Of a stretch of DNA of 64,000 bases, positions 888-22,501 are shown in pieces. The stretch's first letter is position 1. Each line of letters begins with the position of its first letter. The translations under genes and the position numbers were made by a program. The stretch lies in assembly GCA_027075325.1 (NCBI GenBank), contig JALTBN010000060.1, positions 156,010-220,009 on the forward strand, written 5' to 3'. This DNA comes from Thermococcus sp. Lineage in GTDB: Archaea; Methanobacteriota_B; Thermococci; Thermococcales; Thermococcaceae. The notes under the pieces are model-generated. The model was not told the DNA's origin, made no database searches, and worked only from the letters and a program-made list of their open reading frames with translations.

Positions 888-917
888 GACTTCCTTTTTC
901 ATTTGGAGGTTGGTCGG

Positions 918-1792: not shown

Positions 1793-1814
1793 ACCAACCA
1801 CCCATTCTCGGTCC

Positions 1815-1831
1815 AACGTATGGTTTTCAAC
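1815..1831 (-). promoter_or_regulatory. SurR-like extended site upstream of hypA/nikR
   Basis: Minus strand GTTGAAAACCATACGTT = GTTn3AACn5GTT. Confidence 0.65.
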
Positions 1832-1876
1832 TCAACCCTTTTTAAGGTGTTACGTTTATGTCACTCCGGTGATACC

Positions 1877-3042: not shown

Positions 3043-3069
3043 TTCCCTTTTCATTTTGAGGTGTCTACA

Positions 3070-4423: not shown

Positions 4424-4985
4424 TTTTCCCCAAATCCTCCCGCGTGTTCACGTTGAAGAAGCTCTCCCTCCACTCTTCAGGTAATTCCTCGATTTCGATG
4501 TAGCAGGCATTGCTCTCCCTTACCGCGCGGTTTATCGCGTACTGGCCGGCCTCAATTTTTTTCTTCAGAAACCCTCTGAACTCCCCGGAATAGGCCGCGT
4601 GGAGCGGTTCGAGGTAGCCGTTGCACCACCTTGGAACGCAGGCGGGCTTTTTAGCCAGCTTAAAACGCTCGATTATGAAGTCCACGAACTCGGGAACGAG
4701 GAGGGGCATGTCACCGGCAACGACGAATGCATCTCCGAGGGAAAGGGCCGTATAAATTCCGCCAATCGGCCCGACGAGTAGCTCGTCAACGACCACGCGG
4801 TAGCCGAGGGCCTTGAGCTTTTCAGCGTTCTCAGGAGAGGCCACTATAACTACCTCGTCTATTGAACCCGCCGATTTGAGCCTCTCAATCGTGTGGAGTA
4901 TAAGGGGCTTCCCGGAAATTTTAAAGAGGAGCTTGTCGCCCCCGAAGCGCCTTCCCCTTCCGCCGGCTAAAACGACGCCTATCAT
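4395..4985 (-). CDS. mobA: Molybdenum cofactor guanylyltransferase-like protein (MobA family)
   Basis: [37 protein letters not shown]; last gene of the Mo/W-oxidoreductase strand. Confidence 0.8.
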
Positions 4986-5470: not shown

Positions 5471-5797
5471 TCAATCGAAGCTTGGCTGATAGCGGTACTC
5501 GATGTGAAGCTTGCTCTCCGAGTCCAGCTTCTCCATGGCCGCCAGCAGGGTCTTTCTGTCCTCCCTGGGCAGCTCCTCCAGAGGGAGCTTCATGATGTTC
5601 TGGGGTTCTATATCGAACTTCCTCGCGTTTTCATCGATTCCAAGGGACTCCTTGAGGAGCCTCACCGCTTCCTCGCTCAGCTCGCCCTCCTCCTCGATTA
5701 TCAGCATGTCGCCGGCGAAGTGGCCGGTTATCCTGGCCGAGTACTCCGGATAGTCCTCGAACCTGAAGCGGTAGAGCTTCCAGGGCACTTCAGACAC
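5471..5797 (-). CDS. Hypothetical protein co-oriented with hydrogenase operon (108 aa)
   Basis: Overlaps the small-subunit gene by 8 nt; no recognised domain. Confidence 0.65.
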   Translation of the reverse strand: MSEVPWKLYRFRFEDYPEYSARITGHFAGDMLIIEEEGELSEEAVRLLKESLGIDENARKFDIEPQNIMKLPLEELPREDRKTLLAAMEKLDSESKLHIEYRYQPSFD

Positions 5798-6632
5798 CCG
5801 CCGTCACGGGATACTTCTCCTTGATTGCCTCCCCCCACTCGCGGTACTCCTTAACGAGGCGCCAGAACTCGTTCTCCAGGAAGCGCATGGCCACGTTTAT
5901 CCTTGAGTCCTTTTCCTTAAGCGCGTAGCCGGTGATGAGGTCGTGGAGCTTCTCCTGCGGGCTGTCCGGAGCTTCATCGTAAGCCCTTCCGACGAGGCTG
6001 ATAAAGCCCTCGAGGACAGCGTCGCGGTCGTAGTAGCCTACCACCCTTCTAAGTTCCTCCCTCAGCGTAAGCCAGTAGCGGAGGGGTATCGGCCTGTCCG
6101 GAATCCTGAACTTTATCTCGTTCTCTTTGCCCGACTCTTCCGCGGGCGGGAGGGCTATCCAGTACTCGCCCCTCATCTTCTTCTCCTTGATGCCGAGGAG
6201 CTGGGCGACTCCGTAGAGTATCTCCTCCGGGCTGGGTGGACAGCCGGGGATGTACATGTCAATGGGCACTATCATCTCGGGCCCACCGCTCCTCAGCCTG
6301 TCCCTTCCGCGCTGGGGCGAGGTGTTGTAGAGGGCATAGCTGTTGTAGAAGATACCACCGCTGCAGGCGCAGGTTCCTATCGCCACCACTATCCTGGGTT
6401 TGGGTGGCATGGCCTCGTAGGCCTTCTTGAGGGCTATCCTCGTCTGCCTGGTGAGTGGTCCGGTGATGAAGAGCACATCGGCGTGCCTCGGGTTGGGGAC
6501 GACTTTAACACCGAGCCTCTCGAGGTCGTAGTACGGGCTGAGGACGTCGAGGACTTCAATGTCACACCCGTTGCACGAGCCGGCGTCAACGTGATAGACC
6601 CAGACGGACTTGAGCTTCTGCTTTCCCATCAC
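5790..6632 (-). CDS. Membrane [NiFe]-hydrogenase small subunit (HycG/NuoB family) with C-terminal extension
   Basis: CNGCDIEVL, GTCACSGG, PGCPPSPEE 4Fe-4S motifs. Confidence 0.9.
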   Translation of the reverse strand: MMGKQKLKSVWVYHVDAGSCNGCDIEVLDVLSPYYDLERLGVKVVPNPRHADVLFITGPLTRQTRIALKKAYEAMPPKPRIVVAIGTCACSGGIFYNSYALYNTSPQRGRDRLRSGGPEMIVPIDMYIPGCPPSPEEILYGVAQLLGIKEKKMRGEYWIALPPAEESGKENEIKFRIPDRPIPLRYWLTLREELRRVVGYYDRDAVLEGFISLVGRAYDEAPDSPQEKLHDLITGYALKEKDSRINVAMRFLENEFWRLVKEYREWGEAIKEKYPVTAGV

Positions 6633-7258
6633 TCCTCACCCCCTCTCCTCTTGGGGGTCTTTTTGGATTTTTCAACGAGCATGAAAGCCGGGTATACGTT
6701 ACCCTCCGTTTCCCTGAGTTTGACGACGGTTCTGCGCATCTTCTCCTCCTGAGTCAGCTTTATCCTGTCCTCAAGGGCATAGGTGTCGAATATTTCCTTT
6801 GGCAGTATGTTCCTGACGTACTCTATCTGTCTCTCGGTGAAGTCGAGGTACTCTCCACATTCCTCGCAGTAGGCCAGTTTGTGCTCGACGACCTCGACCA
6901 GGTCTTCCTTGTTGTCAGTGGCCACCTCAAAGCGCGTCGTTGGTTCCATAGCACCGGTCGGGCAGACCTCTATACAGCGCGCACAGCGTATGCAGCGCGC
7001 CGCGTTGTAGGTGAGCCTTTTCACGCCATGCTCCTTGTCCCACTCCATTATAAGAGCGTCCGGCGGGCATGCGTTGACGCAGGCTCCACAGCCTATGCAC
7101 TTCTCGGGATTAATGTGCGGGATCCCCCTGAACTCGGGTGGCTTCTCAATGTCGATAAAGGGGTAAGGGGTGGTGACTGGGGCCTTCTTGCTGAACTTCT
7201 CGGCCTCGAAGCGGTCCCACTTCTTCAGCCTCTCACTGTAGGCCGGAGCCTCGGCCAT
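6629..7258 (-). CDS. HycF/NuoI-like 2x[4Fe-4S] protein
   Basis: CIGCGACVNACPPDAL and CIRCARCIEVCPTGAM; extra C-terminal CEECGEY. Confidence 0.9.
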   Translation of the reverse strand: MAEAPAYSERLKKWDRFEAEKFSKKAPVTTPYPFIDIEKPPEFRGIPHINPEKCIGCGACVNACPPDALIMEWDKEHGVKRLTYNAARCIRCARCIEVCPTGAMEPTTRFEVATDNKEDLVEVVEHKLAYCEECGEYLDFTERQIEYVRNILPKEIFDTYALEDRIKLTQEEKMRRTVVKLRETEGNVYPAFMLVEKSKKTPKRRGGEE

Positions 7259-9066
7259 CAGAACACCCCCCGGTACTTGATGGAAAGCTCGTTGAACTCG
7301 GCCTCGGTGAGGACCTTCACCTTTCCGGTGTTCACGTCGACGAACTGCACCCTCTCGGTACAGGAGTAGCACGGGTCGATGCTCGCTATGATGAGCGGCG
7401 CGTCTGCAACGTGGTATCCCTTGAGCATCTCCGGAACAGCGGGCAGGTTGTTGTAGGTCGGGGCGCGGACCTTCCAGCGGTAGACCTTGTTCTTCTCGCC
7501 CGTCATGACGTAGTGAACAACCTCACCGCGGTGGGCCTCGGTGAAGCCCAGTGCCTCCTCGTACTCAGGTAGCTTTCCAATCGGAACCATTATGTCCCCG
7601 TCGGGCATCTGGTCGATGAGCTGCTCGACGATCCAGATGCTCTCGAACAGCTCGTCCATCCTGACGAGGACTCTGGCCAAAACGTCGCCCTCCTTGTAGA
7701 CCGGAACCTTGAAGTCGACCTCGTTGTAGGCGGTGGCAGTCTTAACGGCCTGATCCTTTCTAGTGTCGATCCTCCTTCCACTAGCGCGAGCAGTCGGTCC
7801 TAGAGTAGAATAAGCTTTGGCAACCTTGTAAGGCAGTATACCAACCCCCTCGGCGCGCTTGATGAAGGTGTTGGTGTTCAGGGCTATGTCGAGGAACTTC
7901 TTGGTCTCCTCGCGTATCTGCTTGACCACCTTGAGGACTTCCTCCTTCCTGTAGTCGAGTAGGTCCCTCCTCACGCCGCCGACGATGTTCATTCCGTACT
8001 GCTTCCTGTTTCCAGTTAAGCGCTCCACGAGCCACATGACAGGCTCCCTAATGCGCCAGGAGTGCATGAAGCCAGTGTCGTAGCCGACAAGGTGGGCGGC
8101 GATGCCAACCCAGAGGAGGTGGTTGTGTATTCTCTCAAGCTCCAGGAGGAGGGTTCTGATATAGCGCGCCCTGTCGGGGATTTCAACGTCGGCCAATCTC
8201 TCAACGGCCATAGCGTAGCTGACCGAGTGCTGGTAGCCGCAGATACCGCAGATTCTCTCCGCAAGGAAGAGCACCTGGTTGTATGTTAACCTCCCCTCGC
8301 CGGTCTTCTCGATACCGCGGTGGGAGTAGAAGCCGCGGTAGTCGACGTCAACTATCTCCTCACCCTTGACGAAGAGCCTGAAGTGGGCCGGCTCCTCGAT
8401 ACCCATGTGAACCGGACCCATCGGAACCAGCGTCGTGTCTTCGGGCTTCTCCTTGAATTCAACCTTCGGCTCGGTTATCGGCGAGTGCCTGTAGTCCATG
8501 TCCTTCCTGAGGGGATAGACGCCATCCGGAAAGTCCTCCGGGAGGATGAGCCTCCTCGGGTCCGGGTGGTTGAGGGGCTTGAAGCCGAGCAGGTCCTTCA
8601 CTTCCCTCTCTATCCACAGTGCCGCCGGAAGTTTCTGAGCCACGCTCGGGAAGCTTGGATCATCTTCCGGCAGGTAGGCCCTCAGGAAGACCCAGTAATT
8701 CTCGTCCATGTTGGCGAACTCCACCTGGACGTTAAGGAAGGGCATGTAGACGAAGTGGCCGTTCAGCGGTCTCTCATCAGTTCCAACTGCCGTTGAGAGG
8801 TGGGTCTCCTTGAACTCCGGGTGGTTGTGCCACCAGAGGACCGCCTCGGGAAGCACCTCGCGGTCGATTGTGAACATGTACTGACCGTAGGTCATCCTCT
8901 TACAGCCTTTGATGTGCTCCTTGAAGGCCTCGTAGAAGTCCCTGAGGCCCTTTCTTTCGGAAAGTATTCTTTCAACGTCGGCCTTCGCACAGCGGCCGTC
9001 CTCACAGGCCTTGCATTCAAACTCGAAGTGAGCCTCCAAATCCTTAGTCCTCACCATATTCACCAC
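7258..9066 (-). CDS. Membrane [NiFe]-hydrogenase large subunit (HycE-type NuoCD fusion)
   Basis: L1 RICGICGYQHS and L2 DPCYSCTER nickel-ligand motifs; about 30-aa C-terminal extension after DPCYSCTER. Confidence 0.93.
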   Translation of the reverse strand: MVNMVRTKDLEAHFEFECKACEDGRCAKADVERILSERKGLRDFYEAFKEHIKGCKRMTYGQYMFTIDREVLPEAVLWWHNHPEFKETHLSTAVGTDERPLNGHFVYMPFLNVQVEFANMDENYWVFLRAYLPEDDPSFPSVAQKLPAALWIEREVKDLLGFKPLNHPDPRRLILPEDFPDGVYPLRKDMDYRHSPITEPKVEFKEKPEDTTLVPMGPVHMGIEEPAHFRLFVKGEEIVDVDYRGFYSHRGIEKTGEGRLTYNQVLFLAERICGICGYQHSVSYAMAVERLADVEIPDRARYIRTLLLELERIHNHLLWVGIAAHLVGYDTGFMHSWRIREPVMWLVERLTGNRKQYGMNIVGGVRRDLLDYRKEEVLKVVKQIREETKKFLDIALNTNTFIKRAEGVGILPYKVAKAYSTLGPTARASGRRIDTRKDQAVKTATAYNEVDFKVPVYKEGDVLARVLVRMDELFESIWIVEQLIDQMPDGDIMVPIGKLPEYEEALGFTEAHRGEVVHYVMTGEKNKVYRWKVRAPTYNNLPAVPEMLKGYHVADAPLIIASIDPCYSCTERVQFVDVNTGKVKVLTEAEFNELSIKYRGVF

Positions 9067-9986
9067 CCCATGAACGCCATTGCGAGTATTATCAGTCCCG
9101 CGAAGAACGCGCGGGTGTTCATCTTAACCACGTGGTCTATCCTGAGCCTTGCGTTCGTTGCCTCAAGTGCCGCTATAACCGGGTAGAATGCCACCGTCAG
9201 AACGAACTGGAGCGCCAGGACGAGTGCTGCCTTCTCCGGCGTGCCGACCGGCCCTATCCACGGGAGCGTCAGCAGGCTGACGAAGAACCACAGCAGGGCG
9301 AAGCGCTTGATGTGTATCGCGTAGTAGAAGACCCCCAATAGCCTGCCGCTGTACTCGCTCAGTGGCCCACCTATGACCTCCTGCTCGGCCTCGGCTATGT
9401 CGAAGGGCACGAAGCCGCTCTCGACGTAGAGGGCATAGGCGAGAAGGATGTAGGTCAGCACCAGCGAGGGAGTAAGGTGAAGCCCTGTCATTATTGTGTA
9501 GAGGTCAAGGGAGCCTGAGTTGTAAGCCAGGACACCGTAGAGTATCGCTATCAGAGGCTCGACGGTGAGGATTATCTGCATCTCCCTGGCGGAGCCGAGG
9601 TGGCTGAAGGCGTTCTGTACTGTCAGGCCCGCGAGCATGAGGAAGACGCTGACCATCAGCACCACGTAGAAGAAGACCACCAGGTTGAAGCCGAAGTCCA
9701 CTGGAACGACGTTGCCGTAGGGAAGGAGCAGGGCCGCTGAGAGTGCCGATGCAAGGGCGAGATACGGTGCCCACGTGAACAGCGCCCTCTTGGTGGGCTT
9801 AACGGAGGGCATGCCGAAGAGCTTTCTGAGGTCGTACCAGGTCTGGCTGAGCGGCGGCCCGCGCCTGTACTGGAGCCTGGCCTTTACCCTTCTCGCTATA
9901 CCGTCAAGGTAAGGCGGGAGGAAGAGCATTATGATGATGCCGGCGAGACTGAACCCGAGCTTTACGGCGGTTTCCATCTTCATCAC
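9060..9986 (-). CDS. HycD/NuoH-like membrane subunit
   Basis: GPPLSQTWYDLRKLF, ESGFVPFDIAEAEQEV motif; multiple TM segments. Confidence 0.92.
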   Translation of the reverse strand: MMKMETAVKLGFSLAGIIIMLFLPPYLDGIARRVKARLQYRRGPPLSQTWYDLRKLFGMPSVKPTKRALFTWAPYLALASALSAALLLPYGNVVPVDFGFNLVVFFYVVLMVSVFLMLAGLTVQNAFSHLGSAREMQIILTVEPLIAILYGVLAYNSGSLDLYTIMTGLHLTPSLVLTYILLAYALYVESGFVPFDIAEAEQEVIGGPLSEYSGRLLGVFYYAIHIKRFALLWFFVSLLTLPWIGPVGTPEKAALVLALQFVLTVAFYPVIAALEATNARLRIDHVVKMNTRAFFAGLIILAMAFMGW

Positions 9987-9987
9987 C

Positions 9988-11982
9988 TCACAGTGCCATC
10001 AGTATTCCGATCACCACTCCCACGACCACCAGGGCCAGGACAACGAAGGTTCCGAGCCTCATTCCCGGGAGTACGTCGCAGGCTATCCTGAGGAACCTGA
10101 CGAGCGGCTTCAGCGCCTCCTCGTCGGCGTTGAGTATCTCGCCCATTCTGAGGTCGTCGAGGGTCTCAATCTTGGTGTATGGGGTGTCGACTATCTTGAC
10201 GAAGTAGCTGGCCATCCAGAGGTAAGCTCTCGTTATGTAGTGGATTATTCCAGAGCCAACACTGTAGAACCAGTCGCCGAAGCGGTAGAAGCCGTCTATC
10301 TTGCGCTCGTACTTGATGTAGTAGCCTTCCGCGTTGATCCTGTACTCGTCCCAGTCTATCTCAGTTGAGCCGCAGTCCCAGGGCCTTGCCTCCTTGCCGT
10401 ACTCCGGCTTCAGGGTGAGGTAGAATCCCAGCGCCAGGATGCCTAGGAGAATCACGAAGAGCACGGGGCTGAAGAGCACTGAGCCAAAACCAACCCTGTA
10501 AACGCCGTCCTCTATCGGGGCGTTGAAGACGTTGAGTATTCCGGTTACAGTCCCCGGGAAGATGCCGATTAGGAGGGTTAAGCCAGCGAGAATCCACTGG
10601 CCGGCAACCATCGCTCCGGGAACTTCCCTGACTTCCGAGTACCTCTCGCTCTCGCCGCCGAACTGGGTCCCGTAGAACTTGATGAATGACGCCAGCGTTG
10701 CCGCGCTTATCAGGGCGGCCAATACTGCTCCAAAGGCCAGGAGGAAGTCCCCCGACTGGTAGCCGGCCACGTAGATGAGCCACTTGCTTATGAAGCCGTT
10801 GAAGGGCGGAACTCCGGCTATGGCCAGCGATGCGAAGAGCGCCGCTAAAGCGGTCCACTTCATCTGCTTTCCGAGACCACCAAGCTCGTTGAGTTCAACG
10901 GTTCCCGTCCTGTACTCAACTGCTCCCGCGGAGAGGAAGAGGGAGCTCTTGAATATCGCGTGGTTCAGAGCGTGGAAGAGACCAGCGAAGGCACCAAGGG
11001 CACCTATTGCGCCCAGCGCTCCGCCCTTGGGAATGAGGGCCATGCCTATACCTATCCCAAGCCAGATGTACCCCATCTGACCGACGCTGTGGTAAGCTAA
11101 GAGCCTCTTCGCGTTGGTCTCCCTGAGGGCGTAGAAGGTTCCAACGGTGAGGGTTATCGCTCCAAGGAGAGCTACGGCGATTCCCAGGGAGTAACTTGTT
11201 CCAACCAGGCCCCAGACCAGAGCAATCAGGCCGTAGAGGGCAACCTTCTCCATTGCTCCCGCCATCACGGCGGAGACGCTGCTTGGGGCTGCCCTGTAGG
11301 TTTCCGCGACCCAGAACTGGAAGGGAGTTATACCTGCCTTGGTCATGAAGGCTATGAGGAGCAGGCCTCCAAAGACTATCTTGGTGTGGGTCGGGGCGGT
11401 TGCTAAAGCGGTCGCTATGCTATCAAAGCCCAGCTTTTCAAAGCTCCCGACGAGTGAGTAGGCCGTACCGAGTGCTAAGAAGAGCGGTATCGTGTCGAGG
11501 AAGTGCATGGTGATGTAGTACTTCGTGCTTGCATCCACGTCCCTCTTCCTCTCGCTGAAGAAGACGAGTATGAACGAGCTGAGCGTCATAAGCTCCCAGC
11601 TCATCACGAAGTACTCCATGCTGTTTACCGTGACGACTAAGGCCATGCTCGCGAGGAAGGTGTTGTATGCTATTGCGTACACCCAGCCCTTGCCGGCCTT
11701 TTCAAAGATGTCCATGTAACTTATCGCGTAGAGCGAAGCTGCCGTTCCAACGATACCGATTATCAGAAGGAAGACGCTTGAGAGATTGGTCACGTGAAGT
11801 GGGATCCCGTAGAGGTTGATCCTCTGGGGGCCGTTGGTGTAGACGTTGTAAACCTCGCCAAGGAGGAGCAGCGAACCGAGGAAGGCCATAAAGTTCGATG
11901 CCTTGACCGAGGCTTTGTAATCTTTAATGAAGCCGAGCAGGCCACCGATTATGAAAGCCCCAAGGGCGTATTCGATGAACAT
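9988..11982 (-). CDS. HycC/HyfB/NuoL-like antiporter-type membrane subunit
   Basis: Polytopic; WELMTLSSFILV, PSSVSAVMAGAMEKVALYG, HALNHAIFKSSLFLSAG proton-channel motifs. Confidence 0.92.
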   Translation of the reverse strand: MFIEYALGAFIIGGLLGFIKDYKASVKASNFMAFLGSLLLLGEVYNVYTNGPQRINLYGIPLHVTNLSSVFLLIIGIVGTAASLYAISYMDIFEKAGKGWVYAIAYNTFLASMALVVTVNSMEYFVMSWELMTLSSFILVFFSERKRDVDASTKYYITMHFLDTIPLFLALGTAYSLVGSFEKLGFDSIATALATAPTHTKIVFGGLLLIAFMTKAGITPFQFWVAETYRAAPSSVSAVMAGAMEKVALYGLIALVWGLVGTSYSLGIAVALLGAITLTVGTFYALRETNAKRLLAYHSVGQMGYIWLGIGIGMALIPKGGALGAIGALGAFAGLFHALNHAIFKSSLFLSAGAVEYRTGTVELNELGGLGKQMKWTALAALFASLAIAGVPPFNGFISKWLIYVAGYQSGDFLLAFGAVLAALISAATLASFIKFYGTQFGGESERYSEVREVPGAMVAGQWILAGLTLLIGIFPGTVTGILNVFNAPIEDGVYRVGFGSVLFSPVLFVILLGILALGFYLTLKPEYGKEARPWDCGSTEIDWDEYRINAEGYYIKYERKIDGFYRFGDWFYSVGSGIIHYITRAYLWMASYFVKIVDTPYTKIETLDDLRMGEILNADEEALKPLVRFLRIACDVLPGMRLGTFVVLALVVVGVVIGILMAL

Positions 11983-11988
11983 CTCACA

Positions 11989-13425
11989 TCACCCCACGAA
12001 ACCTATCTTCATCACTATGTCTAGGGTGACCCAGGGCGCGACTATGCCTATGAGGATCAGCGTTACCATTACTGCACACATGAGCCTGGAGGAGTGGAGT
12101 TCAGTTGACGGTGCCGGTTCCCCGAAGAATATCTCCCTGAACCACAGCAGAACCACCACGAGGAATATTGCCGCGTCGAAGAGAACCGTTCCCGGGAAGA
12201 GCCATGAAGCAATACCCTGGGCGTGCCTGGTGCTCATGATGGTGAAGGCCTTGCTGAAGAACAAGCCGAGAGGCAGAACCCCGGCCAGTCCAAGGAAGCT
12301 GAGGAACCAGGCGGTGCTTGCCCATGGGAGGCTTTTTCTGATGCCCCTGATCATCTTGAAGTCCGTGGTTCCAAGGGAGTAGGCAAAGACGCCAACGCTC
12401 ATGAAGGCGAGGGCCTTGACGAAGGCGTGGTTCACCACCTGGTACACGGCTATCTGGAGTCCAGCGGTATGCCCGAGGAGCGCGTAGGCGAGGGTTATGT
12501 AAGCAACTCCGGCCTGAGCGATGGTGGAGTATGCTATGAGCCTCTTACCGTCCCTCTGAAGCGGGTAGTAAATCATCATCAGGAATATCAGCGCCACCGT
12601 GAGGAGGCCAAGGAGCCAGAAGTCATCCCTGCCTGGGTTCATGTACTGGATAACCCTGAAGAGCATGAAGCTGCCGAGAGGGACTATCGATGCCGAGTGA
12701 ACGTAAGCCGACGCTGGAACCGGACCTGCGGTTGCATCCGGGAGCCAGGAGTAGAAGAACAGCTGGGAACTCATTGCCAGAGCCGCGAATATGAGCAGTG
12801 TGAAGGCGGTGTCCTTGGTTGACTGGGCAAGTGAACCCATCCTGGCAAGCTCCTGGCCGTTTCCGAGGATCGCGGTGGCGATTACCATGAGGAAAACCGC
12901 CAGGTTGAGAACAAGGAAGCCCTTGAGGGCCTTGCCCCGTGCGTCCCCGTGGAAGTCAACGAGGTACAGCAGCGCTATCGCCATAAGCTCCAGGGCCACT
13001 ATGAACTGGACCAAGTTCGTGGAGTATATAAAGACCATCGCCGCCCCCGCCAGGAGACCAAAAAGGGCGTAGAACTTACCCTTTCCGCCTTCAAGGGGAT
13101 GGGCTCTGTTCTTTGGCCCCATGTAGTCGGCTGCGTAGAGAACCAGCAGGAACGCTATCAGCAGGGACGTGAACCCCATGAGGACGGAGGCAACGTCAAC
13201 GTTGAGTCCAAAGACCTCACCGAGGTTCCCACCACTGGCGTAGGCGTAGTGGTAGGCCTTCTCGGCCCCTCCCTGGAAGAAATCGTAGGTCCCGTAGGCG
13301 TTTATGAGGAAGGCGATGCCTATTATTGCCGAGGCAACTGCGTCAGCGGCTCTGCCCTCAAGTTTGTACATGAGGAGTAGCAGGAAAGGAAGCAGGGCCG
13401 ATGCGAGGAATACTTCTCCGTTCAC
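11989..13425 (-). CDS. HyfF/MrpD/NuoN-like antiporter-type membrane subunit
   Basis: Polytopic; WLPDATAGPVPASAYVHSASIVPLG, NHAFVKALAFMSVG motifs. Confidence 0.9.
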   Translation of the reverse strand: MNGEVFLASALLPFLLLLMYKLEGRAADAVASAIIGIAFLINAYGTYDFFQGGAEKAYHYAYASGGNLGEVFGLNVDVASVLMGFTSLLIAFLLVLYAADYMGPKNRAHPLEGGKGKFYALFGLLAGAAMVFIYSTNLVQFIVALELMAIALLYLVDFHGDARGKALKGFLVLNLAVFLMVIATAILGNGQELARMGSLAQSTKDTAFTLLIFAALAMSSQLFFYSWLPDATAGPVPASAYVHSASIVPLGSFMLFRVIQYMNPGRDDFWLLGLLTVALIFLMMIYYPLQRDGKRLIAYSTIAQAGVAYITLAYALLGHTAGLQIAVYQVVNHAFVKALAFMSVGVFAYSLGTTDFKMIRGIRKSLPWASTAWFLSFLGLAGVLPLGLFFSKAFTIMSTRHAQGIASWLFPGTVLFDAAIFLVVVLLWFREIFFGEPAPSTELHSSRLMCAVMVTLILIGIVAPWVTLDIVMKIGFVG

Positions 13426-13476: not shown

Positions 13477-13977
13477 TCAGAGGACGAGGTAAGCCTTCTC
13501 GCCCTCCCCCTTCTCGGCCGAACTCTTCAGGTTGGCGACGATCTTTCCTTCCCTGTTCCAGAGCACCTCGTTTATCTCACCGAACTTAAGAGCCTCAGTT
13601 GGACATGCTGAAACACATGCCGGAAGAAGGCCTTCCGCCCTTCTGTCGGCGCAGAGGTCGCACTTGTCCATGATCTTGTTCTCCTCGTCGAGCTTTGGAA
13701 TCCCGAAGGGACAGGCAACGGCACACATGAGACAGCCGATACACTTGAGCGGGTCGAAGGCAACCGCTCCGTCCTCGTCCCTGAAGAGCGCCCCGGTGGG
13801 GCAGACGTTGAGACACGGTGCCTTCTCACAGTGGCGGCAGTTGAATGGGACTGTAAAGAGATCTGGGAACTCGAAGACCTTGATCCTTGCCTCGCCGTGC
13901 GTCATTTCACAGGCCACTTCACAGGCCTTACAGCCAATGCAGCGGCTGTAGTCCAGGAAAATCTTCTTGTGGGCCAT
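13477..13977 (-). CDS. 4Fe-4S electron-transfer subunit (HycB/FdhB-like)
   Basis: CIGCKACEVAC, CRHCEKAPCLNVCP, CIGCLMCAVACP, CDLCADRR...CVSACP. Confidence 0.9.
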   Translation of the reverse strand: MAHKKIFLDYSRCIGCKACEVACEMTHGEARIKVFEFPDLFTVPFNCRHCEKAPCLNVCPTGALFRDEDGAVAFDPLKCIGCLMCAVACPFGIPKLDEENKIMDKCDLCADRRAEGLLPACVSACPTEALKFGEINEVLWNREGKIVANLKSSAEKGEGEKAYLVL

Positions 13978-13987
13978 CTCAACCACC

Positions 13988-16045
13988 TCACTCCTCCACC
14001 CTCTCGACCTTAGCGGCGACGGCCTTCAGCTCGGCCATCTTGGTTTTCTCGTGGGTCTCCTCAAGCGTCAGGAAGTTGACCTGCCAGTGCCAGGGCATCG
14101 CTATGACCCCTTCCCTGACGTGCTCGGTAACTTCAGCCCTGACGAGAACGCTTCCGCGCCTGGTTGAGACCTTGACGAGGTCGCCGCTCCTTATTCCGAG
14201 CGCCCTGGCATCCTTCGGATTTATCATGACGTACTCCTCGGGCCAGCGCTTCTGAAGGCTTGGACTCTCCTCGGTCATGGTGAGGGTGTGCCAGTGGCCG
14301 ACGAGCCTAAAGTTGGTGAGCCAGAACGGATACTCGCCATTGGGCATCTCCGGTGGCTCGCGCCAGCTGACGGGCTGGAGCTGGGCCTTTCCGTCGGCCG
14401 TCTTGAAGCCGTTCTTGAAGAGGACCCTGGTGCCTTCGCCGGGTTCACTGCACGGGAAGAAGCACCCCTCAAGGTGCTCCGCAAGGTACTCCGGTGTTGC
14501 ACCCTTGAAGACGGGGATAACGCTGTTTATCTCCCTGAGGATCTCGTCCGGGTGGCTGTACTTGAAGAACTCACCGAGGCCGAGCTCCCTGGCAAGCTCA
14601 ACGAGGATGAGCCAGTCGGGCTTTGCCTCACCTGGGGATTCAGCGGCCTTGTATGTCCTCTGAACGCGCCTCTCGGCGCTTATTGCCGTTCCGGTCTTCT
14701 CGAACCATGCCGCCGCCGGAAGGACTATGTCTGCATACATGGCCGTCTCAGTAAGGAATATGTCATGAACAACGAGGAAGTCGAGCTTCCTGAGCTGTTC
14801 GCGAACCCAGCCGCTGTTGGGGGCGGACTTGGCTATGTTGCCACCGACGATGTACATCATGCGTATCCTGTTGCCCATTTCCCTGATCATGCTGGTGAGA
14901 TCGAGGCCGACCCAGTCCGGGATCGGGAAGCCCCAGAGCCTCTCGAGTTCCGCCCTACCTGCTTCGTCGGTTACAGGCTTTCCAGTGGGGAGCTTGTCAG
15001 GAGCAATACCGGTCATAGCAGAGCAGAAACCGCACTGCGCTCCGGGGAAGACGCCGCTCCAGACACCTTCTTTGCCGATGTTGCCGGTTATCGCTATGAG
15101 GTTGGCTATGGCTATTGCAGTGTTCAGACCGTTCACATGCTGGTTCATACCCTCGTTGACGAGGAAAGCCGTCCTCTTGCTCGCTATCAGCCTTGCGACC
15201 TTCCTTATGTCTTCAGCCGGAACACCGCTTATCTTCTCGGCCCACTCCGGGGTGTAATCCTTAACCGACTCCTTGAGCCCTTCAAAGCCAGCGGTCCTCT
15301 CCTGGACGAACTCCTTATCATAAATCTCTTCATCGATGACAACGTTGAGCATGGCGAGGGCTATCGCCAGATCGGTGCCAGGGTAGGGCTTGAGGTGGAG
15401 TGAAGCATACTTGTGGCCCCTCGTTGAGCGCGGGTCAATAACTACCATCTCGGCGCCGTTGTCAAGGGCCTTCTCGATGTACTGGCCGAACATCACGGGG
15501 GCAGTCTCGGCCGGGTTGTGACCCCAGACCACTATAAGCTCGGCCTTCTCAATGTCCTCGAAGGGGTTGGTCGCGGCAGCACTTCCAAACACCACGGTTC
15601 TGGCGGGACTGTTTGAGTACTGGCAGTACCTTCCTGGGAAGTCGAGATGGTTGGTTCCAATCGCCTTGGAGAGCTTGTGGACGAGGTAGTTCTCTTCGAG
15701 GGTTATCTTCTCGCTTCCGAGGAAGGCTATTGCCTCCGGACCGTAGGTTTCCTTGATCTCCTTTATTTTCTCCGCGATTATTCTATATGCCTCTTCCCAG
15801 CTTATCTCCTCGAACTTTCCTTCGCCCTTCTCGCCGACGCGCCTGAGGGGCTTCTTAAGCCTCTGGGGGCTGTTGATGAACTGGTAGGAAGCCACTCCCT
15901 TGGGGCAGAGTTTTCCCCTGTTGGGGATCTTTGGATGGTCGTAGTCGAACTCTATCCTCCTGATGTAGCCGTTCACACTAACTGCATAGAATCGGCAGCC
16001 CACGGAACACCATGGGCAGACCACCGGAACCAGTTTCTCTGCCAT
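13988..16045 (-). CDS. Molybdopterin oxidoreductase, formate dehydrogenase alpha-like (substrate uncertain)
   Basis: CPWCSVGCRFY...KLCPKG N-terminal 4Fe-4S motif, active-site region FPGRYCQYSNSPA, molybdopterin dinucleotide-binding C-terminus; next to HycB-like gene. Confidence 0.85.
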   Translation of the reverse strand: MAEKLVPVVCPWCSVGCRFYAVSVNGYIRRIEFDYDHPKIPNRGKLCPKGVASYQFINSPQRLKKPLRRVGEKGEGKFEEISWEEAYRIIAEKIKEIKETYGPEAIAFLGSEKITLEENYLVHKLSKAIGTNHLDFPGRYCQYSNSPARTVVFGSAAATNPFEDIEKAELIVVWGHNPAETAPVMFGQYIEKALDNGAEMVVIDPRSTRGHKYASLHLKPYPGTDLAIALAMLNVVIDEEIYDKEFVQERTAGFEGLKESVKDYTPEWAEKISGVPAEDIRKVARLIASKRTAFLVNEGMNQHVNGLNTAIAIANLIAITGNIGKEGVWSGVFPGAQCGFCSAMTGIAPDKLPTGKPVTDEAGRAELERLWGFPIPDWVGLDLTSMIREMGNRIRMMYIVGGNIAKSAPNSGWVREQLRKLDFLVVHDIFLTETAMYADIVLPAAAWFEKTGTAISAERRVQRTYKAAESPGEAKPDWLILVELARELGLGEFFKYSHPDEILREINSVIPVFKGATPEYLAEHLEGCFFPCSEPGEGTRVLFKNGFKTADGKAQLQPVSWREPPEMPNGEYPFWLTNFRLVGHWHTLTMTEESPSLQKRWPEEYVMINPKDARALGIRSGDLVKVSTRRGSVLVRAEVTEHVREGVIAMPWHWQVNFLTLEETHEKTKMAELKAVAAKVERVEE

Positions 16046-16063: not shown

Positions 16064-16081
16064 AATGACTGGTCAGTCATT
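16064..16081. promoter_or_regulatory. Palindromic operator 1 (AATGACTGGTCAGTCATT), predicted fdhA-like promoter
   Basis: 7-bp perfect arms AATGACT/AGTCATT; lies about 20-40 bp downstream of TATA-like CTATATAAA on the minus strand, before ATG at 16045. Confidence 0.75.
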
Positions 16082-16170
16082 GGAAATGTGTGAAAATAGT
16101 TTATATAGTTTTTTTGAACAAGGTAGAACATTACATAGACATAATTGGGGCAGCGAGACCGAAGCAGTTC

Positions 16171-16764
16171 TCACAAACTTGAGGCTATCTTAAGGTTGTT
16201 TATTATGACAGGAACCACCTTCTGGAGGTAGTGCTCATCGGAAAAACCCAGACACTCCCTGGAGTGAAGGTAGTGCATTAAAGAAGCGATGAACATCTGA
16301 AAAGCTATCAGCGCATCTTCAAAGCCAACTTTGACGTACGCCGTGATCCTCCTGGCCCCCTCGCGCAGCAGCTCCGAACAGGACTGGGAGTAAATCTCAT
16401 CTATACCCTTCATGCGCTTCCTTATTGAGAGCATATGAAAGAAAATCTCGGCACGGTAGTTTTCAGAGTAGAACTCCAAGAACTCCCTTCCAAGCTGAAT
16501 GAGGTAGTCACCCAGGTTGGGGTAGCTAACGGTTATGTACGGATCCCCCAGGGAGGGCATGGCCATTATAGGCATCACTTCAAAGGCTATCTCTTTGATG
16601 AGGTCGTCCTTGCTCCGGAAGTAGAGGTAGAAAGTCCCCTTGGCAACGCCAGCTTTTGCCACAATCTCATCTACCGTCGTTTTGTCAAAGCCATTTCTAG
16701 CAAAAAGCTCCATTGCCGCTGAGACGAGCTTTTCCCGCGTCTTCCCAGGAGACTTGGTGGACAT
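16171..16764 (-). CDS. TetR/AcrR-family transcriptional regulator
   Basis: KTREKLVSAAMELFARNGFDKTTVDEIVAKAGVAKGTFYLYFRSKDDLIKEI HTH; MSTKSPGKTREK start preferred over upstream start. Confidence 0.92.
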   Translation of the reverse strand: MSTKSPGKTREKLVSAAMELFARNGFDKTTVDEIVAKAGVAKGTFYLYFRSKDDLIKEIAFEVMPIMAMPSLGDPYITVSYPNLGDYLIQLGREFLEFYSENYRAEIFFHMLSIRKRMKGIDEIYSQSCSELLREGARRITAYVKVGFEDALIAFQMFIASLMHYLHSRECLGFSDEHYLQKVVPVIINNLKIASSL

Positions 16765-16775
16765 CCTGGCACACC

Positions 16776-16789
16776 TGACCGTACAGTCA
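16776..16789. promoter_or_regulatory. Palindromic operator 2 (TGACCGTACAGTCA) before TetR-family gene
   Basis: Same TGACYG/CAGTCA half-sites, 12 bp upstream of preferred regulator start 16764. Confidence 0.65.
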
Positions 16790-16848
16790 CTAACCACTGG
16801 ACAGTTGTGGGCATAGAAAGATTTAAGCTTTTCTGTGGACAGGAAAAG

Positions 16849-16865
16849 AACCAAAAGTTGAAAAT
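16849..16865 (-). promoter_or_regulatory. Near-match SurR-like site upstream of TetR-family gene
   Basis: Minus strand ATTTTCAACTTTTGGTT, one base off GTTn3AACn5GTT and 16/17 identical to the hypF site. Confidence 0.5.
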
Positions 16866-16885
16866 AAAGACAAGTAATAGTTTGA

Positions 16886-17278
16886 TCAAAGAACCGCTGA
16901 GATTATCTCCTCGTCCACCCTTGCGACCTCCGAGAGGAGCTCGCCAAGCTCCCCCGGAACTATCTTCGCGAAGAGCCCCATGTTCATGCCGAAGACGTAA
17001 ACCCCGTCGGGCATCTCTATGATAGAGAACTTGCAGGGCATCATCGCGGAAATCCAGCGGTTCTCCGGTTTGCTGATGGCCCTGGTGGCAAAGTCCCTGT
17101 TGCAGACCTCGATGATGGCAAACTGAATTCCAACCTTCTCCCTGAAGTCGTACTCCCCTATAACAGTCCAGCCCACTTCCTCGGTTTTCTTCTTCAGTCT
17201 TTCGATGGTCTCCTCAAAGCCGTACTTGCTCTTAGTGCCCTTCACCATCTGCCTCATCATTTCCTCCACGGCAATCAC
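16886..17278 (-). CDS. DUF302-family protein
   Basis: FEETIERLKKKTEEVGWTVIGEYDFREKVG ... PCKFSIIEMPDGVYVFGMNMGLFAKIV resembles DUF302 domain. Confidence 0.75.
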   Translation of the reverse strand: MIAVEEMMRQMVKGTKSKYGFEETIERLKKKTEEVGWTVIGEYDFREKVGIQFAIIEVCNRDFATRAISKPENRWISAMMPCKFSIIEMPDGVYVFGMNMGLFAKIVPGELGELLSEVARVDEEIISAVL

Positions 17279-17295
17279 CTGACTGACCAGTCAGG
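17278..17295. promoter_or_regulatory. Palindromic operator 3 (CCTGACTGACCAGTCAGG), DUF302/hypC-like divergent promoter
   Basis: 14-bp core TGACTGACCAGTCA is the exact reverse complement of operator 1 core. Confidence 0.75.
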
Positions 17296-17320
17296 GCAAG
17301 GAATATAAATCCTTTTCCTG

Positions 17321-17338: not shown

Positions 17339-17596
17339 ATGGCCCTGATGTTCGCGGGTAGGGTTGTTGAGGTCAGGGATAATAAGGCCATAGTCGATGT
17401 TGAAGGCCAGCTGAGGGAAGCGAAGCTCGACTTCATCAGGGACGTGAAACCGGGCGACTACGTAACGATTTACTACGGAATAGTTCTTGAGAAGGTGAGC
17501 GAGGAAGAGGCGAGGGAAACGCTTGAGCACTGCTCATACCATCGTGGGGAGAAGGTAGAGATGACCTTCTCACTGGTTGAAAACCTGAGGTTTTAG
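17339..17596 (+). CDS. HypC-like paralog lacking Cys2 and conserved His
   Basis: MALMFAGRVVEVRDNKAIVDVEG..VKPGDYVTIYYGIVLEKV aligns over its length with the HypC at 17641. Confidence 0.8.
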   Translation: MALMFAGRVVEVRDNKAIVDVEGQLREAKLDFIRDVKPGDYVTIYYGIVLEKVSEEEARETLEHCSYHRGEKVEMTFSLVENLRF

Positions 17597-17640: not shown

Positions 17641-17901
17641 ATGTGTCTCGCGACGATTGCGAAGGTTCTCGAAGTGAACCCAGAGAAGGGAACCGCATGG
17701 GTTGACTTCGGGGGCGTAAAGAGGGAAGCACGTATAGACCTCATGCCGGACATCAAGGTCGGTGACTACGTACTCATCCACACGGGCTTCATAATCGAGC
17801 GCGTTGATGAAAAAACCGCAAAGGAGATACTGAACGCATGGGAAGAGGTCTTCAAGGTCGAGGAGGACGCGATAGGCGGCTACTACTACCCGGGTGATTG
17901 A
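17641..17901 (+). CDS. hypC: Hydrogenase assembly chaperone HypC
   Basis: MCLATIAKVLEV with Cys2; GDYVLIHTGFIIERVDEKTAKEIL. Confidence 0.95.
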   Translation: MCLATIAKVLEVNPEKGTAWVDFGGVKREARIDLMPDIKVGDYVLIHTGFIIERVDEKTAKEILNAWEEVFKVEEDAIGGYYYPGD

Positions 17902-17902
17902 G

Positions 17903-19027
17903 ATGGCCATCGAGGAAGTCGTTCAGCCCTTCAGGGACAGGGAAGTGGCCCAGAAGCTTGTGGAGAAAATCAAAGAGGAGGCCAAAACGCTGGACGGCGA
18001 GATAAGGATAATGCACGTCTGTGGCACTCACGAGGACACGATAACCCGCTCTGGAATACGCTCTCTCCTCCCTGAGAACGTTAAGGTCGTGAGCGGGCCG
18101 GGCTGTCCCGTCTGCATTACCCCCGTTGAGGACATCGTGGCAATGCAGCTCGTTATGAAGAAAGCGAGGGAAGAGGGCGAGGAGATAATCCTGACCACTT
18201 TCGGGGACATGTACAAGATCCCGACGCCCATGGGGAGTTTTGCCGACCTCAAGAGCGAGGGCTTCGACGTCCGCGTTGTCTACTCAATCTTCGACACCTA
18301 CAAAATGGCCAAGGAGAACCCGGACAAAACCGTCGTCCACTTCAGTCCCGGCTTCGAGACCACAACCGCACCAACGGCGGGAATGATAAACGCAGTCGTA
18401 AACGAGGGGCTTGAGAACTTCAAGATCTACTCCGTCCACAGGCTAACGCCGCAGGGAATAGAGGTCCTCATAAAGCAGAAGAGCAGGATAGATGCACTCA
18501 TAGATGCGGGCCACGTCTCGACGATAATCGGTGTGAAAGGCTGGGAGTTCCTGAGCGAGAAGTATGGAATCCCGCAGGTCGTTGCCGGCTTCGAGCCGAA
18601 TGACGTTCTGATGGCAATCCTCCTGCTGATCCGGATGTACAAGGAAGGCAACGCGAGGGTCGTGAACGAGTACGAGAGGGCCGTTAGGTACGAGGGGAAC
18701 GTTACAGCGCAGAGGCTAATCGATAAGTACTTCGAGATTGTCGATGCCAAGTGGCGCGCCCTTGGCATCTTCCCAGGAACGGGGCTTGAGCTGAGGGACG
18801 AGTGGAAGGAACTCGACATCAAGAACCTCTATAAAGTCAAGGTGCCAAAGAACCTGCCAGACCTTGAGAAGGGTTGTCTCTGCGGTGCGGTCTTGAGAGG
18901 ACTTGCCCTCCCGACCGACTGCCCGCACTTCGGCAAGACCTGCACGCCGAGGCACCCAATAGGGCCATGCATGGTGTCCTATGAGGGGACATGCAACATC
19001 TTTTACAAGTACGGCGTTTTGTTCTGA
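17903..19027 (+). CDS. hypD: Hydrogenase formation protein HypD
   Basis: CGTHEDTI, GPGCPVCITP, FSPGFETTTAPTAG, KGCLCGAVL..C..C..C motifs. Confidence 0.97.
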   Translation: MAIEEVVQPFRDREVAQKLVEKIKEEAKTLDGEIRIMHVCGTHEDTITRSGIRSLLPENVKVVSGPGCPVCITPVEDIVAMQLVMKKAREEGEEIILTTFGDMYKIPTPMGSFADLKSEGFDVRVVYSIFDTYKMAKENPDKTVVHFSPGFETTTAPTAGMINAVVNEGLENFKIYSVHRLTPQGIEVLIKQKSRIDALIDAGHVSTIIGVKGWEFLSEKYGIPQVVAGFEPNDVLMAILLLIRMYKEGNARVVNEYERAVRYEGNVTAQRLIDKYFEIVDAKWRALGIFPGTGLELRDEWKELDIKNLYKVKVPKNLPDLEKGCLCGAVLRGLALPTDCPHFGKTCTPRHPIGPCMVSYEGTCNIFYKYGVLF

Positions 19028-19053
19028 CACCAAAGGTTCAAAACTCCCCTATC

Positions 19054-19070
19054 GTTTTCAACTTTTGGTT
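19054..19070 (+). promoter_or_regulatory. SurR-like extended site upstream of hypF
   Basis: GTTTTCAACTTTTGGTT = GTTn3AACn5GTT, about 9 bp before TATA-like CCTATAAAG. Confidence 0.7.
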
Positions 19071-19118
19071 TTGGAAACCTATAAAGCCTCTGATTGCAAA
19101 GAAGGGACAGGTGAGAGG

Positions 19119-21437
19119 ATGAAGGCGTATCACCTTCACGTTCAGGGAATCGTTCAGGCCGTTGGATTCAGGCCCTTTGTCTACAGAATAGCGCATGAGC
19201 ACAACCTCAAGGGCTATGTCAAGAACCTCGGAGATGCGGGCGTTGAGATAGTGGTTGAAGGCCGGGAGGAAGACATCGAGGCCTTTCTCAGGGATTTGCA
19301 CCGAAAGAAGCCGCCGCTCGCGAGGATTGATAAGGTAGAAAAGAAGGAAATTCCGCCCCAGGGTTTCCCGGAGTTCTACATCGAGAGAAGCTCGAAGGGC
19401 GGTAAGGGTGGCGACTCGATAATCCCGCCCGACATAGCCATCTGTGACGACTGCCTGAGGGAGCTTTTTGACCCGACGAACAAGCGCTACATGTATCCGT
19501 TCATAGTCTGCACAAACTGCGGCCCGAGGTTCACGATAATCGAGGATTTGCCATACGATCGCGAGAACACCACCATGCGTGAATTTCCCATGTGTGACTT
19601 CTGTCGGAGCGAATACGAGGATCCCCTAAACAGGCGCTATCATGCTGAACCTATAGCCTGTCCCGTCTGCGGGCCGAGCTACCGCTTGTACACGAGCGAT
19701 GGCAAGGAGATAACCGGCGATCCGCTGAGGAAGGCGGCCGAGCTGATAGACAAGGGCTACATAGTGGCGATAAAGGGAATTGGGGGGATACATTTAGCGT
19801 GCGACGCGGCCAACGAAGAGGCCGTTGTCGAGCTGAGGAAAAGAACCTTCAGGCCACAGAAGCCCTTCGCGATAATGGCCGACTCCCTTGAGACCGTCAA
19901 GAGCTTCGCCTACGTGAGTAAAGAGGAGGAAGATGAACTCACCAGCTACAGGAGACCGATAATAACGCTCCGCAAGAGAGAACCCTTCCCCCTGCCCGAG
20001 AACCTTGCCCCGGGTCTCCACACCATCGGAGTCATGCTCCCCTACGCGGGAACGCACTACATCCTCTTCCACTGGAGCAAAACCAAAGTCTACGTCATGA
20101 CTTCGGCCAATTATCCGGGAATACCTATGGTCAAGGACAACGAGAAAGCGTTTGAAGAGCTTAAGGACATGGCCGACTACCTCCTCCTGCACAACAGGAG
20201 GATACTAAACCGCGCTGATGACAGCGTTGTTCGCTTCGTTGACGGGAAGAGGGCCGTGATAAGGAGAAGCAGGGGTTTCGTGCCGCTGCCGGTAGAGATT
20301 CCCTTCGACTACCGCGGCTTGGCCGTTGGAGCGGAGCTTATGAACGCCTTCGGCGTTGCAAAGAACGGGAAGGTTTACCCGAGCCAGTACATAGGCAACA
20401 CGGGGAAGCTTGAGGTTCTTGAGTTCATGCGCGGGGCAATAGCGCACTTCAAGAGAATACTCCGGGTTAAGGACTTTGACTTAATTATCTCTGACCTCCA
20501 CCCGGGCTACAACACGACGAAGTTGGCAATGGAACTGGCTAACGAGCTTGACGTTGAGCTCCTCCAAGTTCAGCACCACTACGCCCACATAGCGAGCGTT
20601 TTGGCGGAGAAGAACCTCGAATCTGCCGTTGGGATAGCCCTCGACGGAGTCGGCTACGGGACAGATGGAAACGTCTGGGGCGGTGAGGTGCTCTACCTGA
20701 GCTACGAGGACGTTGAGAGATTAGCCCACATAGACTACTACCCGCTCCCGGGCGGTGACTTAGCGAGCTACTACCCGCTGAGGGCCTTGATGGGGATTCT
20801 GAGCAAAATCTACTCCATCGAGGAGCTTGATGGGATAATAGGGCGTTGCTGTCCCAAAGCCGTTGAGAGCCTCAAGTACGGAAGGGTCGAGTTCAACGTT
20901 ATCCTCAACCAGCTCGCCAAGGGGGTGAACACGGCCTACTCATCCTCGACGGGAAGGGTTCTCGATGCCTTAGCGGTCCTTTTGAACGTCGCCTACAGGA
21001 GGCACTACGAGGGCGAACCGGCGATGAAGCTTGAGAGCTTTGCGATGAAGGGCAAGAACGACCTGAAGTTTGAAGTTCCCGTCGAGGGCGAGCTGATAAA
21101 GGTTGAAGAGCTGTTCCTTCAGGCTCTTGATGCAATCGAGAAAGCGTCTCCGGCGGACATAGCATATTCAGCTCACCTGGCTCTCGCGAGGGCCTTCGCG
21201 GATGTTGCCGTAGAAAAAGCGAAGGAGTTCGGCGTTAAGGATGTCGCGATAAGCGGTGGAGTCGCCTATAACGAGCTCATCGTGAAGACGATAAGAAAGG
21301 CCGTTGAAGCCTCCGGACTGAGGTTCCACGCGACGACGGAGGTTCCGCGCGGGGACAACGGGATAAACGTCGGTCAGGCCTTCCTCGGCGGCCTCTACCT
21401 GGAAGGCTACATGAGCAGGGAGGATTTGATGCTTTGA
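19119..21437 (+). CDS. hypF: Carbamoyltransferase HypF
   Basis: Acylphosphatase start (HVQGIVQAVGFRPFVYRIA), zinc fingers CDDC..CTNC..CDFC..CPVC, Kae1-like C-terminal domain. Confidence 0.97.
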   Translation: MKAYHLHVQGIVQAVGFRPFVYRIAHEHNLKGYVKNLGDAGVEIVVEGREEDIEAFLRDLHRKKPPLARIDKVEKKEIPPQGFPEFYIERSSKGGKGGDSIIPPDIAICDDCLRELFDPTNKRYMYPFIVCTNCGPRFTIIEDLPYDRENTTMREFPMCDFCRSEYEDPLNRRYHAEPIACPVCGPSYRLYTSDGKEITGDPLRKAAELIDKGYIVAIKGIGGIHLACDAANEEAVVELRKRTFRPQKPFAIMADSLETVKSFAYVSKEEEDELTSYRRPIITLRKREPFPLPENLAPGLHTIGVMLPYAGTHYILFHWSKTKVYVMTSANYPGIPMVKDNEKAFEELKDMADYLLLHNRRILNRADDSVVRFVDGKRAVIRRSRGFVPLPVEIPFDYRGLAVGAELMNAFGVAKNGKVYPSQYIGNTGKLEVLEFMRGAIAHFKRILRVKDFDLIISDLHPGYNTTKLAMELANELDVELLQVQHHYAHIASVLAEKNLESAVGIALDGVGYGTDGNVWGGEVLYLSYEDVERLAHIDYYPLPGGDLASYYPLRALMGILSKIYSIEELDGIIGRCCPKAVESLKYGRVEFNVILNQLAKGVNTAYSSSTGRVLDALAVLLNVAYRRHYEGEPAMKLESFAMKGKNDLKFEVPVEGELIKVEELFLQALDAIEKASPADIAYSAHLALARAFADVAVEKAKEFGVKDVAISGGVAYNELIVKTIRKAVEASGLRFHATTEVPRGDNGINVGQAFLGGLYLEGYMSREDLML

Positions 21438-21484
21438 GCAAAGTGTTAAATTGAAGGTGTATAGCAGTAAAGGGGGAATTGAGG

Positions 21485-22501
21485 ATGGGAGAGAAGATAA
21501 AGCTTGAACACGGGGCCGGTGGAGAAATAATGGAGGAGCTTTTGAGGGACGTGATACTCAAAACGCTGACCCTCAAGAGCGCCGGTGGAATAGGGTTGGA
21601 TGCACTGGACGACGGGGCAACGATACCCTTCGGCGATAAGCACATCGTCTTCACAATAGACGGCCACACCGTTAAACCGCTCTTCTTCCCCGGCGGGGAC
21701 ATCGGTCGCTTAGCGGTCAGCGGGACGGTGAACGATTTGGCCGTCATGGGTGCTCAGCCAGTGGCTCTGGCAAACTCGATGATAATCGGTGAGGGTCTTG
21801 ATATGGAGATCCTTGAGAGGGTTCTCCGCTCGATGGACGAAACCGCCAGGGAAGTTCCCGTCCCGATAGTCACGGGCGACACGAAGGTCGTTGAAGACCC
21901 GATAGAGATGTTCGTGATTACAGCGGGAATCGGGGTTGCGGAGAAGCCGGTAAGCGATGCCGGAGCCAAGGTTGGCGATGTTGTTTTGGTCAGCGGGACC
22001 ATAGGCGACCACGGGATAGCGCTGATGAGCCACCGCGAGGGAATAGCCTTTGAGACCGAGCTGAAGAGCGACGTTGCGCCGATATGGGACGTCGTTAAAG
22101 CCGTCGCCGAGGAAATAGGCTGGGAGAAGGTCCACGCGATGAAAGACCCGACGAGGGCCGGTTTGAGCAACGCCCTTAACGAGATCGCTCGTAAGAGCAA
22201 CGTGGGAATCCTCGTGAGGGAAGCGAATATTCCAATAAGACCCGAGGTCAGGGCCGCGAGCGAGATGCTCGGCATAAGCCCATACGACGTTGCCAACGAG
22301 GGCAAAGTGGTGATGGTGATAGCGAGAGACTACGCGGAAGACGCTCTGAAGGCAATGAGAAGAACCGAGAAGGGAAAGAACGCCGCGATAATCGGTGAGG
22401 TAATAGAAGAGTACAGGGGAAAGGTTATCCTTGAGACGGGAATCGGTGGGAAACGCTTTATGGAGCCGCCCGAGGGCGACCCCGTGCCGAGGATATGCTG
22501 A
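21485..22501 (+). CDS. hypE: Hydrogenase expression/formation protein HypE
   Basis: AIR synthase fold; C-terminal ...DPVPRIC with modifiable terminal Cys. Confidence 0.97.
   Translation: MGEKIKLEHGAGGEIMEELLRDVILKTLTLKSAGGIGLDALDDGATIPFGDKHIVFTIDGHTVKPLFFPGGDIGRLAVSGTVNDLAVMGAQPVALANSMIIGEGLDMEILERVLRSMDETAREVPVPIVTGDTKVVEDPIEMFVITAGIGVAEKPVSDAGAKVGDVVLVSGTIGDHGIALMSHREGIAFETELKSDVAPIWDVVKAVAEEIGWEKVHAMKDPTRAGLSNALNEIARKSNVGILVREANIPIRPEVRAASEMLGISPYDVANEGKVVMVIARDYAEDALKAMRRTEKGKNAAIIGEVIEEYRGKVILETGIGGKRFMEPPEGDPVPRIC

Follow-up and report, generated by a model that had tools for sequence, protein, structure and literature searches.

Conserved palindromes point to a probable autoregulated TetR-family regulon joining formate hydrogenlyase and hyp genes in Thermococcus

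We analysed a 64,000-nucleotide stretch of Thermococcus sp. DNA, called the window below, which carries an eight-gene formate hydrogenlyase operon (fdhAB and six hydrogenase genes) to the left of a tetR gene. All genes of this operon lie on the minus strand, starting with fdhA (13988-16045), which encodes the formate dehydrogenase catalytic subunit and matches TIGR01591 at 5e-198 (659 bits, just below the 666-bit cut-off). It is followed by genes for an fdhB-like [4Fe-4S] electron-transfer subunit (13477-13986), two antiporter-type membrane subunits resembling mhyC (11989-13425, Proton_antipo_M) and mhyD (9988-11982), an mhyE-like membrane subunit of the NuoH type (9060-9986), an mhyF-like [NiFe]-hydrogenase large subunit (7258-9066) that retains both nickel-binding Cys motifs (RICGIC and DPCYSC), an mhyG-like ferredoxin-type subunit (6629-7258) and an mhyH-like small hydrogenase subunit (5790-6632). 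A small ORF at the end of the operon (5471-5797, minus strand) is a candidate mhyI by its position and length, the name following PMC2718504. Start codons and TATA boxes, here and below, were read by eye from conserved alignments.

We placed the window FdhA from synteny in the Group 4 formate hydrogenlyases (fhl) of a 2023 review (PMC10025317). As in that group, fdhA shares its operon with genes for a group 4 [NiFe]-hydrogenase and for membrane subunits, no formate transporter gene was recognised among the ORFs of the operon, and fdhA is preceded, at a distance of 125 nt and on the same (minus) strand, by a tetR gene. Across the close clade defined below this gap measures about 125 nt, versus about 350 nt in the review. 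The eight-gene architecture is that of fdhAB-mhyCDEFGH in T. litoralis (PMC2432063), and the T. gammatolerans genome report describes an Mhy1 locus with the same gene content and neighbourhood (PMC2718504). As a separate observation, positions 342-3555 and 4395-4985 of the window encode a CooF-like protein, two HycI-like proteases (one recognised by eye), NikR, HypA/Mrp-like proteins and a MobA-like protein, forming one nickel/molybdopterin-enzyme neighbourhood between a CO-dehydrogenase (CODH) cluster and the hydrogenlyase operon.

The tetR gene (16171-16764, minus strand) encodes a TetR-family regulator of about 197 amino acids, counted from its ATG, whose N-terminal helix-turn-helix passed the cut-off of PF00440 (TetR_N, 1.2e-19). 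Helices were predicted along the protein; a structure model built from the single sequence was poor (pLDDT 39.6), the PDB matches covered mainly the helix-turn-helix part, and a profile search of the genome contigs with the TetR alignment gave, among the matches listed, mostly bacterial helix-turn-helix proteins, with Thermococcus records as the nearest named ones in that listing. To the right of tetR lies a divergent DUF302 gene (16886-17278, minus strand, start possibly at 17263; PF03625, 2e-6), followed on the plus strand by hypCa (17339-17596), hypCb (17641-17901), hypD (17894-19027, ATG probably at 17903, assigned by sequence similarity in relatives) and two genes which we take to be hypF (19119-21437, starting at an internal ATG of the 18981-21437 ORF) and hypE (21479-22501, with a C-terminal PRIC motif).

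A reading of the sequence alone (the sequence-only reading) had proposed that three matching palindromes define a TetR-family regulon at this locus, and all three were confirmed at 16066-16079, 16776-16789 and 17280-17293. The first, candidate operator 1 (TGACTGGTCAGTCA, 16066-16079), spans the positions 21-34 bp before the fdhA ATG; the TATA box of the fdhA operon (TATATAAA, 16100-16107, minus strand) precedes it by 20 nt. Operator 1 is the exact reverse complement, as had been claimed, of candidate operator 3 (TGACTGACCAGTCA, 17280-17293), which is located between the divergent DUF302 and hypC genes. Candidate operator 2 (TGACCGTACAGTCA, 16776-16789) lies between the outer two and directly upstream of tetR, in its 5' leader (-25 to -12 from the ATG), with the probable tetR TATA box at 16820-16827 (CTTAAATC, minus strand). 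An AT-rich patch at 17302-17309 reads as the TATA box of hypC on the plus strand (AATATAAA) and probably as that of DUF302 on the minus strand (TTTATATT), which places operator 3 at 8 nt from either TATA, on the downstream side for DUF302 and on the upstream side for hypC. These promoter elements, read from the sequence, are conserved in relatives. The expectation that every site would sit near a transcription start thus held for fdhA and DUF302; the tetR site falls in the 5' leader, and the hypC site is upstream of the TATA box. The geometry of a repressor over a start is a better fit for DUF302 than for hypC.

The pattern TGAC-N6-GTCA matches the window three times, at these palindromes only, versus 0.71 matches expected per 64 kb, and three matches were reached in 1 of 100 shuffles. 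The placement is a much stronger coincidence than the count, since the three copies fall inside 1.25 kb and every one of them is in an intergenic promoter region. A refined motif, TGACYRNNYRGTCA, matched the 2.3-Mb genome four times, versus once for the backwards control; the four matches are the three window copies and one copy in a CODH intergenic region 3.9 kb to the left of the window. Further motif matches within ORFs were treated as chance. A palindromic operator at the regulator's own promoter is a trait of the TetR family, and the palindrome at 16776-16789 is a putative autoregulatory site of this kind. A TGAC...GTCA core is also found in the E. coli RutR box (TTGACCANNTGGTCAA), the operator of a TetR-family protein with a pyrimidine regulon, to which we claim no orthology.

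We searched for the regulator in 94 genomes of the family, which are unevenly related, and found it in 39, including 26 genomes with at least 66% identity (the close clade). The sequence-only reading would have been undermined had the palindrome been lost upstream of orthologous operons; it was kept, with an exact palindrome 30-36 bp before the fdhA ATG in all 39 regulator-bearing genomes, from three genera, and downstream of a recognisable TATA box in nearly all of them. Within the close clade, 25 of 26 genomes have an exact tetR site, with invariant arms and a variable centre; at hypC/DUF302 the site is exact in 23 of 26 and has at most one mismatch in all 26. In one genome (G004), tetR is located about 15 kb away from fdhA, and sites are found at both. 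Distinct sites share invariant arms (2.0 bits) around a variable centre of 2-6 bp, and most flanking positions hold less than 0.8 bits; the flanks of the hypC site are partly conserved, because the promoter and the DUF302 start overlap there. The fdhA and hypC sites have an extra half, giving the form TGACYRGTCAGTCA in which an inner and an outer palindrome overlap, and the tetR and codh sites usually consist of the outer palindrome alone. The double form may allow tighter or double occupancy at the structural genes.

The more distant clade, in which the regulator has 35% identity, keeps the fdhA and tetR sites, and no site was found at hypC. At four of the loci examined (L035, L038, L041 and L044) a second palindrome precedes the fdhA operator by 103-104 bp, or about ten helical turns, a spacing that in these distant-clade genomes would suit looping. 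Second copies of fdhA (L036/L042) were seen in G039, with TGACTAGTTAGTCA at -33, and in G089, where the copy has no palindrome. Separately, TGACCAACTGGTCA occurs close before a gene for a Cys-rich secreted protein (halocin-like by eye) in four genomes (L062:2624, L063:2878, L177 and L179), and the same 14-mer is present in G048, which has no regulator.

The first gene of the hyp operon is unusual. HypCa has a HypC domain (PF01455, 1e-16; TIGR00074, 57.5 bits, cut-off 48) and an invariant C-terminal CSY, yet begins with MALMFAGRV and has no Cys at position 2, a residue described as essential in HypC chaperones (PMC12134894) and absent in all 26 HypCa orthologues, most of which begin with MALMLAGRV. 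It goes with an ordinary HypC, HypCb (MCLAT), and with the formate hydrogenlyase of this locus only. Among the 94 genomes searched, hypCa was found in exactly the 26 that have the close regulator, a match that does not amount to 26 independent events because the genes are neighbours. The tie between hydrogenlyase and hyp genes suggested by the sequence-only reading is in this respect real and exclusive, and it is confined to the close clade, since the 35%-identity clade has no site at hypC. Four loci (L004, L005, L023 and L024) have no DUF302 gene and still have the hypC/DUF302 site; therefore hypC itself is probably a target. The missing Cys2 in a presumably co-regulated first HypC is a new observation.

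The fourth palindrome, TGACTAAATAGTCA (G000:C60:152144-152157, or L031:3145-3158), is located between a gene for a CooC-like ATPase and the cooF-cooS CO-dehydrogenase cluster (cooS matches TIGR01702 at 1e-210). Its position is constant among genomes, at -132 to -136 of cooF and about 85 bp upstream of the proximal cooF TATA, with centres that differ and arms that are fixed. An exact site is present in 8 of the 10 regulator-bearing genomes that have the cluster versus 1 of 7 regulator-less ones, and one further regulator-less genome, an incomplete draft, has the site with one mismatch; the two ways of counting the draft give Fisher p values of 0.015 and 0.058, among genomes that are related. 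We also noted a conserved GTGTATAACCTTAGGTT just upstream of this palindrome (L031 around 3107-3125 and the aligned positions), which resembles a SurR site and is followed by ATAATT, a possible distal promoter.

From this distribution we infer, with somewhat better than even confidence, that the CODH cluster is a fourth target of the TetR regulator. The regulon may instead comprise only the fhl, tetR, hyp and DUF302 genes, the CODH intergenic site serving a different regulator, which we consider the less probable reading and still a serious one. It draws on the borderline p values among related genomes and on the exceptions, since sites occur in G064 and in G031, both of which lack the regulator (G031 being a complete genome with no orthologous TetR, and so a true exception), and the site is missing from G047 and G056, which have the regulator; against it, the site holds a single aligned position with invariant arms around five or more different centres, and it is absent in 5 of 7 regulator-less genomes. 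The regulon probably includes CO dehydrogenase as well, and the circuit would then not be strictly local.

Taking the sites together, we consider it likely that the TetR protein is an autoregulated repressor of the formate hydrogenlyase operon, of a dedicated hyp operon and of the DUF302 gene, and probably of CODH; site conservation, and a number of sites that tracks the regulator gene, support the proposed regulon. A TetR dimer would bind the 14-bp TGAC-N6-GTCA sequence, of which the structural genes carry the stronger-looking form TGACYRGTCAGTCA. Bound at fdhA and DUF302, it would cover the start of transcription, immediately past the TATA box; at tetR it would occupy the leader, a usual place for autorepression; and at hypC it would abut the upstream edge of the promoter, where it could act by repression or by activation. 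The bound protein would keep the Group 4 fhl operon, the hypCaCbDFE maturation operon and the DUF302 gene low, as well as the nearby cooC/cooF-cooS cluster in most genomes that have it. An effector binding the C-terminal domain would release TetR from the DNA, and the enzyme and the factors that assemble its metal centres would then rise together. Such coordinated derepression of enzyme and maturation genes is the simplest reading of the arrangement.

The position of the hypC site admits a second mode of action, in which the protein represses fdhA, DUF302 and itself, and in which sites that precede the TATA box let it activate the hyp operon and perhaps codh. We regard this as unlikely. It would explain why the hypC site lies 8 nt upstream of the TATA at a nearly constant distance and persists in the four loci that have no DUF302, and it would suit the distance of the cooF site from its proximal TATA. 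However, a repressor abutting the BRE could also block TFB, the codh site would again have the geometry of a repressor relative to a TATA-like ATAATT that precedes it by 14 nt, and opposite moves of the hyp and hydrogenlyase genes would be hard to understand if the protein did not activate all of its targets.

That another regulator binds the palindromes, with tetR merely one of its targets, seems highly improbable. The perfect CODH-region site of G031, which has no orthologous TetR, would fit such a protein, as would the occurrence of TGACCAACTGGTCA before the halocin-like genes and in one regulator-less genome; but matches to TGACYRNNYRGTCA averaged 3.5 per genome with the close regulator versus 0.42, a background level, in the 55 genomes with no regulator (Mann-Whitney p about 3e-14, a descriptive value that ignores shared ancestry). 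G004, moreover, keeps the site at a tetR gene unlinked to fdhA, and recognition helix and operator are conserved together: the residues of this helix are invariant or nearly so in 19 regulators, whose identity to that of the window runs from 85% down to 33%, and remain conserved from Pyrococcus to Thermococcus while the remaining regulator sequence diverges. EnfR (TON_1525), a repressor known at the codh promoter of T. onnurineus (PMC10570040), is alike in its target, but it has a Tfx-family fold and binds an unrelated 36-bp site, and we rejected it as the binder of the CODH site because its motif is different. The palindromes are perfect or near-perfect dyads, but we practically dismiss the idea that they are RNA or terminator hairpins or a repeat element instead of operators, since their position is fixed relative to promoters in dozens of genomes, their arms are conserved around the variable centre with no T run, and they are not dispersed, with four copies in their own genome.

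For the TetR repressor that we prefer, Tyr101 and Cys131 (numbered as in the comparison of the 19 regulators), both in the ligand domain and invariant among the regulators, are hypothetical sensor residues. We guess that the effector is a signal of reductant overflow or of sulfur or redox state that acts near Cys131, because the published survey has no SurR site (GTTn3AAC) at Group 4 fhl promoters (PMC10025317), so that a sulfur control of these genes, should it exist, would depend on another sensor. Formate does not suggest itself as the inducer, because the Group 4 operon of T. paralvinellae falls on formate (PMC10025317). We dropped cadmium induction in T. gammatolerans as evidence of thiol sensing, as it concerns Mhy2, the other hydrogenlyase. 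In the widest form of the proposal, one TetR would govern a C1/hydrogen regulon (fhl, CODH, and hyp with a Cys2-less HypC serving only this hydrogenase) and would sense sulfur or redox state through Cys131, making a SurR-independent switch between sulfur and proton reduction; this is speculative, and we think it quite improbable as a whole.

An autoregulated TetR repressor of neighbouring operons is of a classical kind, and several known systems are comparable in part. The SurR regulon of Thermococcales resembles the present one in the sulfur-dependent control of hydrogenase operons, but the SurR protein and its motif are unrelated to TetR and TGAC-N6-GTCA. FadR of Sulfolobus acidocaldarius is also an archaeal TetR-family regulator of a gene cluster, but it acts in fatty-acid metabolism and its targets differ (PMC6449355). 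The T. litoralis operon goes up on peptides and down with sulfur (PMC2432063); it is isolated beside the hyh-1 hydrogenase operon, for which reason we did not transfer these expression data to the window operon, and no TetR or palindromic operator was described for it. For Mhy1 of T. gammatolerans, the accessible part of the genome report (PMC2718504, 2009) places hyp genes nearby with two HypC-like proteins, describes no regulatory site and makes no mention of a missing Cys2; it also states that most formate hydrogenlyase subunits went undetected in proteomes from standard growth. The 2023 review, which describes a tetR gene next to almost every fhl operon of Group 4 and calls the mechanism unknown, gives no operator, autoregulation, or hyp, DUF302 or CODH link, all of which are proposed here (PMC10025317), and our literature search, which covered mainly open-access papers, returned nothing on an operator, on autoregulation or on a tie to hyp or CODH genes.

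For a regulation that the review calls unknown, the present analysis names a candidate regulator and an operator sequence and lists targets as well as regulator-less genomes that can serve as controls; the question of fhl control thereby becomes one for gel shifts and a knockout in organisms that serve hydrogen production. The analysis also points to HypCa as an atypical HypC, apparently dedicated to a single hydrogenase. If the proposal is true, an enzyme and the genes that assemble its metal centres would stand under one switch in archaea.
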